Made by a program: the position numbers and the translations under genes. The notes beneath the pieces were generated by a model, which was not told where the DNA came from, did no database searches, and saw nothing but the letters and a program-made list of their open reading frames with translations. Below are positions 29,154 to 58,942 of a stretch of 64,000 bases of DNA, in pieces. This DNA is from Falsiroseomonas stagni DSM 19981. GTDB lineage: Bacteria; Pseudomonadota; Alphaproteobacteria; Acetobacterales; Acetobacteraceae. Position 1 is the first letter of the stretch. Every line of letters begins with the position of its first letter. The stretch spans positions 1 through 64,000 of the forward strand of contig NZ_FOSQ01000007.1 of assembly GCF_900114315.1 (NCBI RefSeq). Reading direction: 5' to 3'.

Positions 29154-30236
29154 ATGCCGGATGCCCCGCCCTTCCCCACGCCGCTGCGAACCGGGGATTT
29201 CGACTATGACCTGCCCGAACGCCTGATCGCCCAGGCGCCGGCCCGGCCACGCGATTCCGCCCGCCTGCTGGTGGTGGGCGATGGGCGGCTGGAGGATCGG
29301 GGCGTCCTCGACCTGCCGGCGATGCTCGACCCCGGCGATGTGCTGGTGGTGAACGACACCCGCGTGATCCCGGCCCGGCTGCATGGCCGCCGGGGCGAGG
29401 CCCGCGTCGAGATCATGCTGAACCGGGCGGAGGGCGGCGGGCTGTGGCACGCGCTGATCCGCAATGCCCGGCGGCTGCGGCCCGGCGATACCGTGGCGAT
29501 CGAGGGCGCGGAAGGCTGCGTGGCGCGGGTGGTGGAGCGCGACGGCGGCAGCGCGCTGCTCGATTTCGGGCCGGACCAGGCGGCGCTGGCAGCCGCGCTG
29601 GAACAGGCGGGCGAGGTTCCCCTGCCCCCCTACATCCACCGCGATGGCAAGCCGGGCGCGGAGGATGTGGCGGACTACCAGACCATCTTCGCGGAACGCC
29701 CCGGCGCCGTGGCCGCCCCCACCGCCAGCCTGCACTTCACCGACCAGCTCCTGGCGGCACTCGACGCGCGCGGCATCCGGCGCGCGACCGTGACGCTGCA
29801 TGTCGGCGCCGGCACCTTCCTGCCGGTGCGGGAGGATGACCCCCGCGCGCACCACATCCACCAGGAATGGTGCGACGTATCGCCGGAGGCCGCGGACACC
29901 ATCAACCAGGCCCGCGCCGAGGGCCGCCGGGTGGTGGCGGTGGGCACGACGGCGCTGCGCACGACCGAAAGCGCGGCGCGGGAGGATGGGACCGTCGCGC
30001 CCTTCCGGGGGCTGACGGACCTCTACATCCTGCCGGGCTACCGCTTCCGCGCCGTCGATGCTCTGGTGACGAATTTCCACCTGCCCAAATCCACGCTGCT
30101 CATGCTGGTCTCCGCCTTCGCCGGCACGCGGCGGATGCGCGCGGCCTATGCGCATGCGGTGGCGCAGGAATACCGCTTCTTCTCCTACGGGGACGGCAGC
30201 CTGCTGTTCCGCTGCGACCAGGATTCCCCCGCGTGA
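29154..30236 (+). CDS. queA: S-adenosylmethionine:tRNA ribosyltransferase-isomerase QueA
   Basis: A 360-residue enzyme that transfers and isomerises the ribosyl part of SAM onto preQ1 in tRNA, giving epoxyqueuosine. Recognisable segments are [25 protein letters not shown] near the N-terminus, [23 protein letters not shown] with [12 protein letters not shown], and [22 protein letters not shown] and [19 protein letters not shown]. Length is normal. It overlaps tgt by 4 bases (GTGA), so the two steps of queuosine insertion are cotranslated. Confidence 0.96.
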
Positions 30237-31420
30237 CCCTGCACTGGACCATGGCCGCCCGAGACGGCGCGGCCCGCGCCGGCACCCTGATGACGGCGCA
30301 TGGGGAGGTGCCGACACCGGTCTTCATGCCGGTCGGCACCGCCGGCACCGTCAAGGCCATGACGGCCGATGCGGTGCGCAGCACCGGCGCGCGGATGGTG
30401 CTGGGCAACACCTACCACCTGATGCTGCGCCCCGGCGCGGAACGCGTGGCGCGCCTCGGCGGGCTGCACAGGCTGATGGACTGGCACGGGCCGATCCTGA
30501 CGGATAGCGGCGGCTACCAGGTGATGTCGCTGGCGGGGCTCAGGAAGCTCGACGCCGATGGCGTGACCTTCCAGTCCCATATCGACGGGTCGAAGCACCG
30601 GATCACGCCGGAACGCAGCGTGGAGATCCAGCATCTGCTGGGCGCCGACGTCACCATGTGCTTCGACGAATGCACGCCCTACCCCGCCACGCATGAACAG
30701 GCCGCCGAGAGCATGCGCCTGTCCATGCGCTGGGCCGCGCGGTCCCGCGCAGCCTTCAAGCCGCGCCCCGGCCACGGCCTGTTCGGCATCGTGCAGGGCA
30801 GCACCTTCGAGGATCTGCGCAGCGAGAGCATCCAGGCCCTGACCGCGATCGGCTTCGAAGGCTATGCCATCGGCGGCCTGGCCGTCGGCGAGGGCCAGGC
30901 GGAGATGCTGCGGGTGCTGGACTTCACCACGCCGCAACTGCCGCAGGATGCGCCCCGCTACCTCATGGGCGTGGGCACGCCCTCGGATCTGATCGAATCC
31001 ATCCGTCGCGGCGTCGACATGTTCGACTGCGTGATCCCCACGCGATCCGGCCGCACCGGCCGCGCCTATACCAGCCGCGGCGTGCTCAACATGCGCAACG
31101 CGAAACACGCGGAAGACACCGGGCCGGTGGACCCCGACTGCGACTGCCCGGCCTGCCGCAACCACTCCCGCGCCTATATCCACCACCTCATCAAGGCCGA
31201 GGAGATGCTCGGCCCGATGCTGCTGACCTGGCACAACATCCAGTACTACCAGCGCCTGACCGCACGCCTGCGGGCGGCGATCCTGGCGGGGCGGTTCGAG
31301 GAAGAAGCGGCGGTGATCGAGGCGGGGTGGGGTGGCGCTGGTGAGGCTGGGGACGGGGCGCTGCCCCCTCCCCAGACCCCTTCCCCGCCAAGGGGCAGCG
31401 GCCCCTTGGATCCCATGTGA
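30233..31420 (+). CDS. tgt: tRNA-guanine transglycosylase
   Basis: A 395-residue Tgt that exchanges guanine 34 of GUN-anticodon tRNAs for preQ1. Active-site segments are [12 protein letters not shown] (general acid Asp), [14 protein letters not shown] (substrate-binding Gly-Gly), and [11 protein letters not shown] (nucleophilic Asp). Zinc ligands are [11 protein letters not shown] and the later His in IHHLIKAEE. The start is GTG overlapping queA. The last 30 or so residues (after EAGWGG) are low-complexity, Pro/Gly-rich and encoded by a double-hairpin repeat, an unusual C-terminal tail not expected in the family. Confidence 0.96.
31356..31410. repeat. double-hairpin repeat overlapping the 3-prime end of tgt
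   Basis: First stem GGGGC (31356-31360) with GCCCC (31364-31368), loop GCT; second stem CCAAGGGG (31389-31396) with CCCCTTGG (31403-31410). Same two-stem plan as at 19970, here read in-frame as the tail of Tgt. Confidence 0.7.
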
Positions 31421-31507
31421 ATTGGAAGGCGGAGAGAGGGGCACGGCGCGCGTCCCCCATCCGAGCGTGCTCGGTGCCCCTCCCTCCGCCTTCCAAAACC
31501 TCGCGGT

Positions 31508-31566
31508 CCAGGGTCCCGCTGGACCCTGGCTGGGTGAGGTTCGGAGAGGGGCAGCGCCCCTCTCCG
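31508..31566. repeat. double-hairpin repeat, inverted copy
   Basis: Stem CCAGGGTCC (31508-31516) with GGACCCTGG (31521-31529), then an 11-bp stem 31542-31552 with 31556-31566 around AGC. The order of the two stems is reversed relative to the copy at 31356, so the 31421-31589 gap holds an inverted pair of elements. It may terminate the minus-strand gene that ends at 31590. Confidence 0.65.
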
Positions 31567-31589
31567 AGGGCCACCCGCACCCACCCCAC

Positions 31590-31982
31590 TCACGGCCTCC
31601 ATCCCCGCAACTCCCCGAACACCTGCGCCACCGTCGGCGGCAGGTCGGGCGGCGGGGTCGTGCCGGGCCAGCGGATGGTCGTGGTGCCCTGGCTGAGGGA
31701 GCAGGTCATGTTCCCCGGCGCGCCCCCGCCCATGCGGATGAAGCCGGCAGCGGCCAGGATGGCGTCCCAGCGGCGGAAGGCGGCTTCGTCCTCCCCCAGC
31801 GGGGTTGCCACTTCGGGGGCGGCGGCGGTTGTGCGGCTGAGGCGGAGGAGGCGCCCATCCGGCATGATGCGCGTGCCGTTGCCGCCGCCGGTCACGCCGC
31901 CGGCGCACCAGGCGGTGATCGGGGTCTGTGCCGCGGCGGGCGTCGCCAGGGCCAGGGCAGCCGCCACCAGGAATACGCGCAT
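31590..31982 (-). CDS. Small secreted hypothetical protein
   Basis: A 130-residue protein of unknown function with a clear signal peptide ([19 protein letters not shown]). Two Cys residues (CAGG near 26 and MTCSL near 93) could form a disulfide in the periplasm. No domain recognised. It is encoded opposite to the queuosine genes and shares the upstream region of queF. Confidence 0.6.
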
Positions 31983-32086
31983 CCTCGCCCCTTCCTTCCG
32001 GCGCTGCTATAGGCGCCGCCTTCCAGGCTAGTGGATTCCAGGCGGTGACGGGACCTTCGATTTCGACGGATACGAGCGGGCTGACC

Positions 32087-32521
32087 ATGCTCGGCCAGCA
32101 GACGGCGCAGCCCGCGACGCCGGAGGCGGCGGTGCTGGAGCGCGTGCCGAACCCGCATCCGGGGCAGCGCTATTGCGTGCGCTTCACGGCGCCGGAGTTC
32201 ACCTCGCTCTGCCCCATGACGGGCCAGCCGGATTTCGCGCATCTCGTCATCGACTATGTGCCGCGGGATTGGCTGGTGGAGAGCAAGTCCCTGAAGCTCT
32301 ACCTGACCGCCTTCCGCAACCACGGCGCCTTCCACGAGGCCTGCACGGTCGGCATCGCGCGGCGCCTGGTGGAGGAGCTGGACCCGGAGTGGCTGCGCAT
32401 CGGCGGCTACTGGTATCCGCGGGGCGGCATCCCGATCGACGTGTTCTACGCCACGGGGGAGCCGCCGGCGGGCGTCTGGGTGCCGCCGCAGGACGTGCCG
32501 GGGTATCGTGGGCGGGGCTGA
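32087..32521 (+). CDS. queF: NADPH-dependent 7-cyano-7-deazaguanine reductase QueF
   Basis: A 144-residue type I QueF that reduces preQ0 to preQ1. It contains [16 protein letters not shown] with the Cys that forms the thioimide intermediate, the family motif ESKSLKLYL (Glu for substrate binding), FRNHGAFHE and a C-terminal GGIPIDVF. Length is right for the short unimodular form. Start placed at MLGQQTAQP, 104 bases from the divergent secreted protein gene. The end overlaps queG by 14 bases. Confidence 0.93.
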
Positions 32522-33548
32522 GGCCCGGGACGCGATACGGGCCCGCGCGCTGGCGCTGGGCTTCGATGCGGTGGGCTTCGCGCGCGCCGCACTGGCCGCG
32601 GAGGCGCGGGAACGACTGGGTGCCTTCCTGGCCGCGGGACACCATGGATCGATGGGCTGGATGGAGGCTCGCGCCGACCAGCGCGCGGACCCGAAGGCGC
32701 TGTGGCCGGAAGCGGTGAGCGTGATCTCGCTCGGCCTGAACTACGGGCCGGACCGGGACCCGATGGAAAGCCTGGGCTGGCGGGACCGAGGGACGATCAG
32801 CGTCTACGCCCGCAACCGGGACTATCATGACCTGGTGAAAGGGCGGCTGAAGCAGCTGGGCGGCTGGATCGCGGGGCGGTTCAAGGGCAGCGGGATCAAG
32901 GTCTTCGTCGATACCGCGCCGGTGATGGAAAAGCCGCTGGCGCAGCAGGCGGGGATCGGGTGGCAGGGCAAGCATACCAACCTCGTCTCCCGCGATTTCG
33001 GGTCCTGGCTGTTCCTGGGCGAGGTGTTCACCACGCTCGACCTGGTGCCGGATGAGGCGGAGCGCGACCATTGCGGACGCTGCGATGCCTGCCTGCGCGC
33101 CTGCCCGACGGAGGCCTTCCCGGCGCCCTACCGGCTGGATGCCAGGCGCTGCATCTCCTACCTGACCATCGAGCATCACGGCCCGATCCCGGCTGAACTG
33201 CGCGCGAGGATGGGCAACCGCATCTATGGCTGCGATGACTGCCTGGCGGTCTGCCCCTGGAACAAATTCGCCCGGGCGCATGAGGAGCCGGCCTTCGCGC
33301 CGCGCGCGGCCCTGACGGCGCCTCGGCTGGCGGAACTGGCCGCGCTGGATGATGCGGGGTTTCGCGCGCTGTTCAGCGCCAGCCCCATCAAGCGCATCGG
33401 CCGCAACCGCTTCGTGCGGAACGTGCTGGTGGCCATCGGCAACAGCGGCGATCCGGCGCTGCGCGCCACGGCGCAGGGCCTGTGCGATGATGCGGATGAG
33501 AGCGTCGCGGAATGTGCGCGATGGGCAAGCGAGAGGTTGCTTGGATGA
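32508..33548 (+). CDS. queG: Epoxyqueuosine reductase QueG
   Basis: A 346-residue cobalamin- and Fe-S-dependent enzyme for the last step of queuosine formation in tRNA. The B12/catalytic half shows [20 protein letters not shown] and [19 protein letters not shown]. The two ferredoxin-like clusters are [16 protein letters not shown] and [11 protein letters not shown], with [12 protein letters not shown] between them. A HEAT-like C-terminus recognises tRNA. Start is GTG inside queF; it overlaps queC by ATGA. Confidence 0.95.
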
Positions 33549-34357
33549 TCCCTTCTGTTGCTGGAGCCGCTTCGCGCCCGCCAGCGGCGGGCGAGGCCGC
33601 GAATGCGGCCCGCCGGCAGTCCGGCGAGCCAAGCGCGCGGAGCGCGCGCCCGGCGATTGAGGGCGAGCGGAGCGACAAGGCGCTGGTGCTGTTCTCCGGC
33701 GGGCAGGACAGCGCGACCTGCCTGGCCTGGGCACTGGACCGCTATGCCGCGGTGGAGACGCTGGGCTTCGACTACGGCCAGCGGCATGTGGTGGAACTGG
33801 AAACGCGCGCCGCCTTCCGCGCGCATGTCGCGGCGCATCCCGTCTGGGGCGGCCGGCTCGGCGCGGATCATATCATCAAGATCGATGCCCTGGGCGCGAT
33901 CAGCGAGACCTCGCTGACCCGCGATGTGGCGATCGAGATGGAGACCGGCGGGCTGCCCAACACCTTCGTGCCCGGGCGGAACCTGATCTTCCTGACCTTC
34001 GCCGCGGCGCTCGCCTTCCGGCGCGGGCTGAAGCACATCGTCACCGGCGTCTGCGAGACCGACTATTCCGGCTATCCCGACTGCCGGGACGACACGATCA
34101 AGGCGCTGCAGGTGGCGCTGAACCTCGGCATGGAGAAGCGTTTCGTCCTGCACACGCCGCTGATGTGGCGGGACAAGGCGGCAACCTGGCAGCTGGCGCA
34201 GGAGCTTGGCGGGGATGGGTTGGTGGAGGCGATCCGGACCATCACCCATTCCTGCTACCTCGGCGATCGCACGCCGCATGAATGGGGCGCGGGCTGCGGG
34301 CATTGCCCGGCCTGTGACCTGCGGGAACGCGGCTGGCGGAAGTGGAAGGCGGCATGA
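33545..34357 (+). CDS. queC: 7-cyano-7-deazaguanine synthase QueC with repeat-encoded N-terminal extension
   Basis: A 270-residue ATP-dependent enzyme that converts 7-carboxy-7-deazaguanine to preQ0. The PP-loop is [16 protein letters not shown], the substrate region [15 protein letters not shown], and the zinc site SCYLG with [14 protein letters not shown]. About 45 residues precede the PP-loop, whereas QueC proteins usually begin a few residues before it. This extension comes from a palindromic repeat (33575-33664). No ATG, GTG or TTG lies in-frame between the repeat and the PP-loop, so the repeat must be translated. Starts in the ATGA overlap with queG. Confidence 0.93.
33575..33664 (+). 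repeat. palindrome-rich interspersed element, copy 1 (inside queC)
   Basis: About 90 bases rich in short palindromes (GCGCGCGG/AGCGCGCG type), ending GGCGATTGAGGGC. It aligns along its length with 35575-35667 and with the reverse complement of 58849-58942. The shared core is GCGA(A)GCCAAGC-CGCGGAGCG. It adds about 30 in-frame residues to QueC. Confidence 0.7.
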
Positions 34358-34899
34358 CCCCGCGGGCGGAGGGCTTCGTCTTCCTCGCGGGGTTCGGGCT
34401 GTGCATCCCGGCGGCCAATTGGCTGATCGGGCATGCAGGCACGATGTGCATCCCGGGCGGGCCCTGCCTGGTGCCGGTCGCGCCAGGGGTCATGGCGCCG
34501 TCGGGCGTGCTGATGATCGGCTTGGCGCTGGTGCTGCGGGATCTGGTGCAGCGCCGGCTCGGGCTGGGATGGGCGTTCGGGGCGGTGCTGGCCGGCGCCG
34601 CGCTCTCCGCCCTGCTGGCGCCGCCGGCGCTGGTGGTGGCCTCCGCGCTGGCCTTCCTGCTCTCGGAACTCGTGGACCTCGCGGTCTATACGCCCTTGCA
34701 ACGGCGGGGCCTGGTGCTGGCCGTGGCGGCGAGTGGCGCGGTGGGCCTGGTGGTGGATAGCGCTGTGTTTCTGTGGCTGGCCTTCGGCAGCCTGGACTTC
34801 ATGGCCGGGCAGGTTCTGGGCAAGGCGTGGATGGTGCTGGCGGCGCTGCCCATCCTGCAGGTGATGCGCAGGCGCGATGCGGCGCGGGGGATTGCATGA
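34354..34899 (+). CDS. VUT/YhhQ family queuosine precursor transporter
   Basis: A 181-residue membrane protein with about five hydrophobic segments, of the vitamin uptake transporter/YhhQ (QPTR) family that imports queuosine precursors. Key parts are [33 protein letters not shown] and [17 protein letters not shown]. Its position inside the queuosine operon (ATGA overlap with queC) supports this role over a purely structural guess. Import would complement the reductase QueF and QueC steps when precursors are available outside. Confidence 0.8.
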
Positions 34900-35552
34900 A
34901 GATCCTGGTGGTTCGGAACAGCGAGACAGCGCCGGAGGGCGCCTTCGGCGACTGGCTGCGCGCGCAGGGGCATGAGCTGGAGATCATCGCCGGCTGTGAC
35001 GTGACGGACGCCCAGATGCAGGCGGCGCCCCTCGTCGTCATGCTCGGATCGCCGCGGGGCGTCTATGAGGGCGCGGCCCATCCCTGGATCGACGCGCAGC
35101 GCGCCATGGTGGCGAAGCGGCTGGAGGCGCAGCACCCCACCATCGGCATCTGCTTCGGCGCGCAGATGATGGCGGCCGCCGCGGGCGGCAGCGTGGCGCG
35201 CCATGCGGAGGGCGTGTTCCATCGCGGCTGGATCGGCAATGCGGAGGCCGCTGAGCCCTCCCTGGAAGGGGTGTGGCCGCGCTGGCATGGCGATGTGATC
35301 ACGCCCCCGCCGCAGGCGACGGTGCTGGCCCGCGATGCCGGCACGGTTCAGTGCTTCGCGCTGCCCAACGCCATCGCCGTTCAGTTCCACCCGGAGGCGA
35401 CACCCGCGATCATGGACCATTGGGCGAGCCTGTCGGCGCCTGGCGCCGTGGACCGCGGAGCGATGCTCGACCAGGGCGCGGTGCTGTTCGAGGAACGGCG
35501 CGCGGCGCGGGAGGCCTTGTTCGCGGAATTGCTACGGCGGGCCGGGGTGTGA
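34896..35552 (+). CDS. Class I glutamine amidotransferase-like protein
   Basis: A 218-residue protein of the GATase1 fold. The nucleophile elbow is GICFGAQMMAAAAGG with the catalytic Cys, and the His-x-Glu part of the triad is QFHPEATP near residue 167. It opens with [15 protein letters not shown]. It resembles GMP synthase-type amidotransferase domains that stand alone, for which several roles are known (for example gamma-glutamyl hydrolase or amidation of small molecules). It overlaps the transporter gene by ATGA and the GNAT gene by one base, so it belongs to the queuosine operon by arrangement; a role in deazaguanine metabolism is only a suggestion. Confidence 0.8.
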   Translation: MKILVVRNSETAPEGAFGDWLRAQGHELEIIAGCDVTDAQMQAAPLVVMLGSPRGVYEGAAHPWIDAQRAMVAKRLEAQHPTIGICFGAQMMAAAAGGSVARHAEGVFHRGWIGNAEAAEPSLEGVWPRWHGDVITPPPQATVLARDAGTVQCFALPNAIAVQFHPEATPAIMDHWASLSAPGAVDRGAMLDQGAVLFEERRAAREALFAELLRRAGV

Positions 35553-36208
35553 TGCGATCGGCACGACGGGGTGACCTGCGGCCGGCAACGCCGGCCGAGG
35601 CGCCGGATGGCGCCCGCGGCCAGTGCGGCGAAGCCAAGCCCGCGGAGCGGGCGCTGGCGATTGAGGCACCGGAAAGCAACACCAACGAGCCGCTGCAAGC
35701 GGCCGTTGGTGTGAGGCTGGACACGCCGCGCCTGCGGCTGCGGCCGCACAGCGTCGAGGATTTCGAGGCGCTGGCGACGCTCTGGGCGGACCCGGCGGTG
35801 ACGCGCTTCATCGGTGGCCGGCCGGCGACGCGGGAGGAAAGCTGGGGGCGGCTGCTGCGCTATGCCGGGCTCTGGCGGTTGCTGGGCTTCGGCTATTGGG
35901 CGGTGGAGGATCGCGAAACCGGCGCCTATCTCGGCGATGTCGGCTTCGCGGATTTCCACCGGCCGCTGGACCCCGCGCCCCCTGCCCTGCCGGAGATGGG
36001 CTGGGTGCTATCGCCCGCCGTGCATGGGAAGGGCCTGGCGACGGAGGCCGCGGCTGCGGCGCTGGCCTGGCTGGGTCGCGACTGCTTCTGCATGATCGAC
36101 CCTGCCCATGCAGGTTCGCTGCGCGTCGCCGCAAAGCTGGGCTTCGTCCAGGTTGGCGTGCCGCGTTATCGCGACGGCGTTACGACCTTGTTGATCCGCC
36201 GCCATTGA
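35552..36208 (+). CDS. GNAT family N-acetyltransferase
   Basis: A 218-residue acetyltransferase of the RimJ/RimL type. The catalytic domain begins at VRLDTPRLRLRPHSVEDFEAL (about residue 53) and has the acetyl-CoA site around GWVLSPAVHGKGLATEAAAAAL. The C-terminus VAAKLGFVQVG is typical. If translation starts at ATG 35552, the first 50 residues come from a palindromic element and a second palindrome. A GTG at 35711 directly before the domain is an alternative start, without an obvious ribosome site. Last gene of the queuosine operon; target unknown. Confidence 0.8.
   Translation: MRSARRGDLRPATPAEAPDGARGQCGEAKPAERALAIEAPESNTNEPLQAAVGVRLDTPRLRLRPHSVEDFEALATLWADPAVTRFIGGRPATREESWGRLLRYAGLWRLLGFGYWAVEDRETGAYLGDVGFADFHRPLDPAPPALPEMGWVLSPAVHGKGLATEAAAAALAWLGRDCFCMIDPAHAGSLRVAAKLGFVQVGVPRYRDGVTTLLIRRH
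35575..35667 (+). repeat. palindrome-rich interspersed element, copy 2 (start of the GNAT gene)
   Basis: About 92 bases aligned with the copy in queC and ending GGCGATTGAGGC. Translated in the GNAT frame it gives a peptide in the same register as in QueC (both start R-P, share G-E in the middle and end A-I-E). Confidence 0.7.
35681..35710 (+). repeat. near-perfect 30-base palindrome
   Basis: Arms ACCAACG (35681-35687) and GCCGCT (35689-35694) pair with AGCGGC (35698-35703) and CGTTGGT (35704-35710) around GCA, with one bulged base. It sits just before the GTG that could start the GNAT domain. Confidence 0.65.
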
Positions 36209-58848: not shown

Positions 58849-58942
58849 GCCCTCAAGCGCCGGGCGGCCGCATCCGCGGCCTTGGCTTCGCGGCACTGGC
58901 CGCGGCGGCCGTCCGGCCGCTCGGCCCGCAAGCGGGCCGCAT
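58849..58942 (-). repeat. palindrome-rich interspersed element, copy 3 (intergenic)
   Basis: Reverse complement aligns with the elements in queC and at the GNAT start: it shares GCGGCCAGTGC-GCGAAGCCAAG and ends GGCGCTTGAGGGC. It lies 6 bases after the TctC stop and 27 bases before the cupin gene. Confidence 0.65.

Follow-up and report, generated by a model that had tools for sequence, protein, structure and literature searches.

How does a gene whose start codon overlaps the stop codon of its neighbour come to carry a palindromic repeat at its very beginning, and does the protein carry the repeat as well? The window, by which we mean the whole stretch of 64,000 nucleotides that was analysed, raises this question at queC (33545..34357, plus strand, 270 codons, Pfam QueC). 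The queC start ATG (33545-33547) overlaps the stop TGA (33546-33548) of the upstream gene queG (32508..33548, plus strand, Pfam QueG_DUF1730 and Fer4_16) in the tetranucleotide ATGA (33545..33548, plus strand). Together with a nearby ORF of tgt-like sequence, the two genes occupy 29867 to 34357, presumably as a queuosine gene neighbourhood. An initial annotation of this DNA described the repeat as a member of a selfish family resembling the Rickettsia palindromic elements (RPEs) and held that it is translated as part of QueC. The reading that we favour, to which we assign a probability of roughly 0.8, is that the repeat comes from a family, spread across the Alphaproteobacteria, of non-autonomous, MITE-like elements that insert at TNA with a 3-bp target duplication, and that the fusion in queC came about through loss of the element's right end.

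Results

The insert in queC and its absence from relatives

The insert begins at the queG stop codon that overlaps the queC start, and relatives lack it. On the plus strand, the TGA at 33546-33548, presumed insertion site and left target copy, is followed by a left arm of 23 nt (33549..33571), which has the length found in full-length copies and a diverged sequence. Next come the 92 bases of the core (33572..33663, plus strand), made of covarying hairpins, open in the queC frame, ending in GATTGAGGG and matching the covariance model of the element at 93.9 bits (E 1.2e-13). The conserved GAGGG within it (33659..33663, plus strand), which is Shine-Dalgarno-like in other copies, has no start codon at a useful distance here. 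A right remnant of 10 nt (33664..33673, plus strand) separates it from the conserved GAC-AAG-GCG.

A search for QueC in 59 genomes, its own included, gave a match at E<=1e-30 in 34. In the nearest congeners (G005, G012 and G013; core identity 92-94%), the end of queG runs directly into ATG-GGT-GAC, followed by GAC-AAG, GGG-AAA or GGA-AAA, and the queC start sits within TGATG, at the place where the queG stop in the window reads ATGA. Set against these junctions, the right arm of the element, the right TGA and the native ATG-GGT are missing from the window. The initial annotation had called for a comparison of queC with its relatives, and the outcome agrees with an insertion: the junctions of 29 relatives were read, and a profile search of their queC loci found no element core at E<=0.01, the same profile recovering both copies in the own queC locus. 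Since the queC copy has neither a right end nor a second TGA, a target duplication cannot be demonstrated for it. The residue that is K5 in the nearest congeners is K45 here, a net gain of 40 residues; the figure of about 30 given initially holds for the contribution of the core and falls short of this total, the rest coming from the left arm and the short right remnant.

The start codon of QueC

With the right end and the native ATG missing, a ribosome that starts at the ATGA of the queG stop has to read across the element. The initial annotation had reached the same view on the ground that no ATG, GTG or TTG lies in frame between the element and the PP-loop, and this is incorrect: a GTG at 33686..33688 (plus strand, V48) is in frame, three codons ahead of the PP-loop SGGQDS. 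QueC could then be unextended, its translation starting at this GTG, with the element merely a leader and GAGGG lying upstream with 22 nt between. That spacing is poor, and a start at the GTG would remove A46-L47, which is invariant in a 15-sequence alignment, together with three of the five residues of the predicted strand 45-49, thus cutting predicted beta strand 1; ATG 33545, the competing start, has GAGAGG 8 nt upstream. We consider an unextended QueC unlikely. Because a GTG start would cost A46-L47 and residues of strand 1, translation through the element is the likely reading, and the statement that the insert must be translated softens to one that it very likely is.

The Pfam domain of QueC covers residues 45-267 and leaves residues 1-44 outside. 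In a structure model of the protein (15 sequences, mean pLDDT 72), residues 1-42 have a pLDDT below 50 and strand 1 occupies 45-49. Judging from the sequence, QueC very probably carries about 40 extra residues derived from the element, and the model suggests that they would form a disordered N-terminus.

Copies in the window and beyond

The similarity of three copies within the window, reported in the initial annotation, is confirmed: the queC copy aligns at 80% (90 nt, E 2e-16) with 35578-35666 and at 81% (57 nt, E 9e-8) with 58849-58905 read as the reverse complement. The first match belongs to a full-length copy of 159 bp (35553..35711, plus strand) between a GATase gene and a GNAT gene, flanked by TGA at 35550-35552 and 35712-35714. 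The last base of this element and the right TGA copy together rebuild the GTG start of the GNAT gene (35711..35713, plus strand), which matches Pfam GNAT from here. The third copy (58850..58942, minus strand) is an intergenic core with no recognisable ends or target duplication.

The source genome (44 contigs, 6.38 Mb) gave at least 47 matches at E<=1 to the queC copy as query, with 40 of 276 candidates scored. With a covariance model trained on 18 copies, the count was at least 52 at E<=1 and at least 45 at E<=0.01 (150 of 23167 candidates scored), so that the genome-wide profile search proposed in the initial annotation yields far more than chance-like matches; 44 of the own-genome copies were examined in context. 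The element is present in all 15 genomes of the genus, its own included, at no fewer than 33-112 copies each (150 candidates scored per genome). It occurs in at least 21 of the 120 genomes of a family sample, two of the genus among them (35 candidates scored each), and in at least 19 of the 289 genomes of a class sample, again with its own included (14 candidates scored each as a rule). As the number of candidates scored was limited, each copy number is a minimum and genomes with weak copies may have gone undetected. A scan of named records with one strict pattern returned 48 stretches, all of them alphaproteobacterial to judge by the genus names in the record titles. A plasmid search returned seven records, from Azospirillum and Niveispirillum, covering 42-48% of the query at 76-80% identity. 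Relatives of the element occur across the Alphaproteobacteria.

Architecture of the element

The layout consists of core hairpins, with conserved loops and stems that are free in sequence but complementary, followed by a TTGAGGG-like stretch and the right arm. Ordinary full-length copies measure 125-161 bp, those with extra hairpins up to about 208 bp, and they contain no transposase coding sequence. Within the genus, full-length copies are usually 158 or 159 bp long and run from a TACCAACGGC-like start to a GCCGTTGGTA-like end; the two ends pair over about 10 bp in the genus and about 5 bp in other groups. In an alignment of 18 copies, standard pairs occupy 98.8% of the pair cells and 14 of the 28 pairs have changes on both sides. 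Cells with a double change number 52, against 13.5 (sd 2.6) in shuffles, and the effect is lost when the partners are slid, the structure having been derived from the same alignment on which it was tested. Selection for structure in RNA or single-stranded DNA could account for such covariation; mutation that keeps palindromes, for example by template switching, may be an alternative source.

A second recurrent palindrome, approximately GTCACGCCG-AGGCGTGCC-TCGGCACGACG, is nested between the core hairpins of several copies (L025, L069, L083, L086, L130, L131 and L133), and from this the elements seem to grow by further hairpin insertion. Head-to-tail arrays of cores, spaced by about 100-126 nt, were seen at L011:1265-1482, on contig 4 of G006 at 705717-706015, and at L143 and L298. 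Over genus and class loci, GANTC methylation sites occur at 1.63/kb in elements and 0.86/kb in flanks (44 in 27 kb versus 144 in 167 kb), roughly a doubling that is reminiscent of the Caulobacter CIR repeats and may hint at a link with them.

Ends and target duplication

Copies of the element insert at TNA, usually TGA or TCA in the genus, and duplicate this target. Identical triplets flank 21 of the 26 full-length copies from G000, G012 and G013, and all of them are TNA (TGA, TCA or TAA). Because the G000 copies behind the end model had been selected for their duplication, the fairer figure is that from G012 and G013, which lay outside the end definition and show the duplication in 9 of 13 full-length copies. 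The copies start near TACC, and the last base is A in 21 of the 26; a tandem pair in G000 is bordered by TTA left and right. A stricter automatic search found the end pair together with the duplication at 27 of 169 cores; shuffled flanks gave 7 of 845. The failure of the other 142 indicates that most copies are decayed or have other ends. Applied to 50 matches from the named scan, this search passed four, all from a G045-type MAG, and a reading of 22 loci from other taxa found the core accompanied by other or decayed ends.

G045 belongs to another family and carries near-identical copies of 146 bp. Duplicated TTA, TAA or TGA borders 9 of the 10 copies for which both flanks are available, six more left ends, cut by contig ends or lacking a right end, having been left out. 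Only 4 of 13 readable stop-type triplets there end an ORF of at least 100 codons, which makes the target TNA rather than a stop codon. In the GC-rich genus, part of the preference for gene ends probably reflects which insertions selection tolerates.

A right-end pattern applied to six genomes, with part of the relatives' matches read, found no transposase between ends that would mark an autonomous partner; nor was a transposase with exact ends found by an end pattern in three genomes or by a left-end pattern in G045. Exact TNATACCAACGGC sites number 26 in three genomes, and the seven that lie outside the listed cores and right ends look like element ends, as judged by profile or by eye. Such a partner may sit in another place or carry less exact ends.

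Empty sites

The flanks of 13 sites were joined and sought in congeners, and the joint could be read in at least one congener at 11 of them. A single TGA stands at the joint in nine of these 11: at ATGA starts (L094, L088 and L110), at stop/start overlaps reading ATGA, GTGA or TTGA (L089, L104, L185 and L200), at L070, and at L014, where it is a stop only. Codon usage or inspection by eye identified the coding genes next to most of these sites. L116 has three relatives without the insert, with TGA at the joint in only one, and the L016 site is empty but without TGA. The joint of L013 was seen solely as an unbroken match in the flank-joining search, and for L020 this search found no empty relative among the congeners. 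Five congeners have no insert at the GNAT site and show a GTGA or ATGA overlap instead.

A shorter relic was noticed in G000 at L318, the site of L200. This stretch of 26 nt includes GGGCGCTTGAGGGAATGA and TTGAGGG-AATGA and is apparently a deletion derivative in which the hairpins are lost and GAGGG and ATGA kept. The same junction is filled in G013 and, to judge from broken matches of 170-179 nt, in G005 and G012.

Position at gene junctions and open frames

Fourteen of the 21 duplications lie at the stop of a coding-like ORF on either strand, five have a start at the right end only and two have neither; L116, one of the five, has no native start by the empty-site reading. A same-strand coding-like stop lies within 200 nt upstream in 79 of the 150 distinct cores that have GAGG and enough flank, and in 21 of these 79 the distance from the first base of that stop to the start of the core is 26 nt. 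Since the last base A and the second TGA together give ATGA, the upstream stop and the downstream start both survive an insertion. At L185 and L200, the GTG or TTG start of congeners appears converted to ATG by the rebuilt end.

Among 38 copies with a coding-like start within 200 nt, GAGG precedes the start by 7-10 nt in 12 and by 43-45 nt in eight. Starts 3-12 nt after GAGG are found at 12 of 150 elements versus 220 of 3106 GAGG elsewhere, a control in which codons inside genes are included. In view of this lack of enrichment, a role as ribosome site rests on the sharp peaks in distance, from which we infer that the GAGGG near the 3' end serves as the ribosome-binding site of the downstream gene in some copies.

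In the 158-bp copies at start codons (L013, L094, L088 and L110), the frame of the left ATG runs through 54 codons as far as the right TGA, its stop. Of the 26 full-length copies, 12 have that frame open, close to the 0.40 that shuffling predicts; for the remaining five frames the counts are 17, 2, 20, 19 and 23. The frame of the left ATG is open in 10 of 13 TGA-flanked sense copies versus 1 of 10 TCA-side copies (Fisher p 0.003), in a comparison that was chosen after seeing the data and among copies that share descent. The openness of this frame in the sense TGA copies suggests translation, without proving it, and open element frames may keep translational coupling in other copies.

How often such frames join a gene was surveyed over 167 distinct cores (seven sets of loci), with a codon table derived from the window, which suits distant genomes less. 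Twenty-one open frames run across the core into a coding-like stretch, and all 21 have some start codon after the element. From a reading of these frames, we judge queC, whose only early start after the element is the GTG at 33686 within strand 1, to be the single forced fusion; the survey listed no C-terminal extensions. The GNAT copy can be read through in frame, yet its right end also rebuilds the GTG start.

Discussion

The proposal of an RPE-like family that specialises in entering protein-coding genes in frame draws on several shared features. RPEs are palindromic, interspersed sequences of about 150 bp that can form translated in-frame inserts, as far as the accessible text of one account goes (PMC10969869). 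By that account, the present element resembles them in its size of about 100-160 bp, its palindromes, its interspersion and its translatable insert, which is in frame in queC, the GNAT copy being readable as well. What speaks against the proposal is the habit of the element. Frequent in-frame insertion would be expected of such a family, and one fusion among 167 distinct cores was judged to be forced; the copies sit at stop and start codons with a TNA duplication of 3 bp, and it is by this description that the two are set apart. The ends differ as well, being TACC-like and GGTA-like in full-length copies, whereas the RPEs of R. conorii are said, in the part of PMC3733652 available to us, to end in CGTC, a motif found here only inside some cores and never at full-length ends. 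An RPE-like specialist is thus distinctly unlikely. What endures of the original idea is an interspersed, palindromic and probably selfish family; what does not is a habit of in-frame insertion inside genes.

One could envision that no mobile element is involved and that the repeat is a conserved cis-regulatory RNA such as a leader, an attenuator or a 3' UTR stabiliser. The strong covariation of the stems, the conserved loops, the sense orientation after stops and the position of GAGG 7-10 nt before starts in 12 copies would all suit such a role. We nevertheless find it very unlikely, given that presence varies between congeners at the same junction, that the flanks carry target duplications and that the neighbouring genes look unrelated. 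Rfam yielded no match at gathering score in the window and none at E<=1 in 33500-35800. Individual copies of the element may have been co-opted for regulation.

Highly improbable, in our view, is an element of the REP/BIME type moved by a RAYT (Y1) transposase, to which GC-rich hairpins, location after genes and tandem arrays might point. REPs are not known to make target duplications. Y1_Tnp is absent from the own genome and occurs in 10 of 120 genomes of the family, G128 being the only one of the 10 that also has the element (21 of the 120 do), both counts apparently coming from the same sample. This absence, from the own genome and from all but one of the 21 element-bearing genomes, leads us to reject RAYT as the mobiliser. 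In the part of PMC3733652 at hand, REPs are given as 20-40 bp long, GTAG REPs may supply a TAG stop and are in some cases found in ORFs, often N-terminally, and CGTC repeats are reported missing from Acetobacteraceae, the family of the present genome. The likeness to GTAG and CGTC REPs, within that text, lies in hairpins near gene ends; the present unit is much longer, its ends are without GTAG or CGTC, and it shows no association with RAYT. Chance similarity and assembly artefact are ruled out by the genome-wide copies, the distribution in genus and family, and the empty sites.

Bacterial MITEs (NEMIS, RUP, ERIC, QMITE, CIR and others) stand close to the reading that we favour, being short, non-autonomous and mostly intergenic, with inverted ends and a target duplication. 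The present element is likewise short, contains no transposase coding sequence and duplicates a target of fixed length (3 bp). It differs in ends that pair over about 5-10 bp, where the accessible text of PMC3733652 gives 15-30 bp for the terminal inverted repeats of MITEs, in a multi-hairpin core with covarying stems, in its TGA/ATGA habit and in that no parent transposase was found. In its workings it resembles a MITE and, at queC, an RPE; as neither such a transposase nor long inverted ends were found, we file it only as MITE-like. A MITE read in frame has been described, at least in the portion of PMC5896051 available, where QMITE2 encodes the C-terminal 33 residues of EnhC in a single Coxiella strain. 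No published description of the present family was apparent in the open-licence papers searched.

On the MITE-like reading, the element would consist of successive hairpins framed by a TACC-like and a GGTA-like end. At queC, it would have entered the TGA of the overlap between queG stop and queC start, and its right end would then have been lost together with the native queC ATG. The gene would have survived by means of the ATGA at the queG stop, whose frame crosses the element without a stop and meets queC in phase. This is the order of events that we infer, and the QueC fusion looks like a by-product of an overlapping stop and start combined with loss of a right end.

It is tempting to speculate further, if only tentatively, that the element is a specialist of gene junctions. 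Its TGA target, its final A and its GAGGG might together let it enter stops, starts and ATGA overlaps with neither gene broken, the coupling of the two genes being exchanged for a ribosome site of the element's own or for a leader of 54 codons. Such a leader peptide would be made where GAGGG lies far from the start, and its stop would overlap the native start (L013, L094, L088 and L110); the new N-terminus of QueC would then stem from the same design. The contrast in frame openness between TGA-flanked sense copies and TCA-side copies lends this idea some support, though across the 26 copies taken together openness is close to chance. If these interpretations are correct, a class-wide mobile family would be entering overlapping genes almost harmlessly, and would offer a concrete route to N-terminal tails of proteins and to the loss and regain of translational coupling in operons. 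Gene-start annotation beside such copies may then often be wrong.
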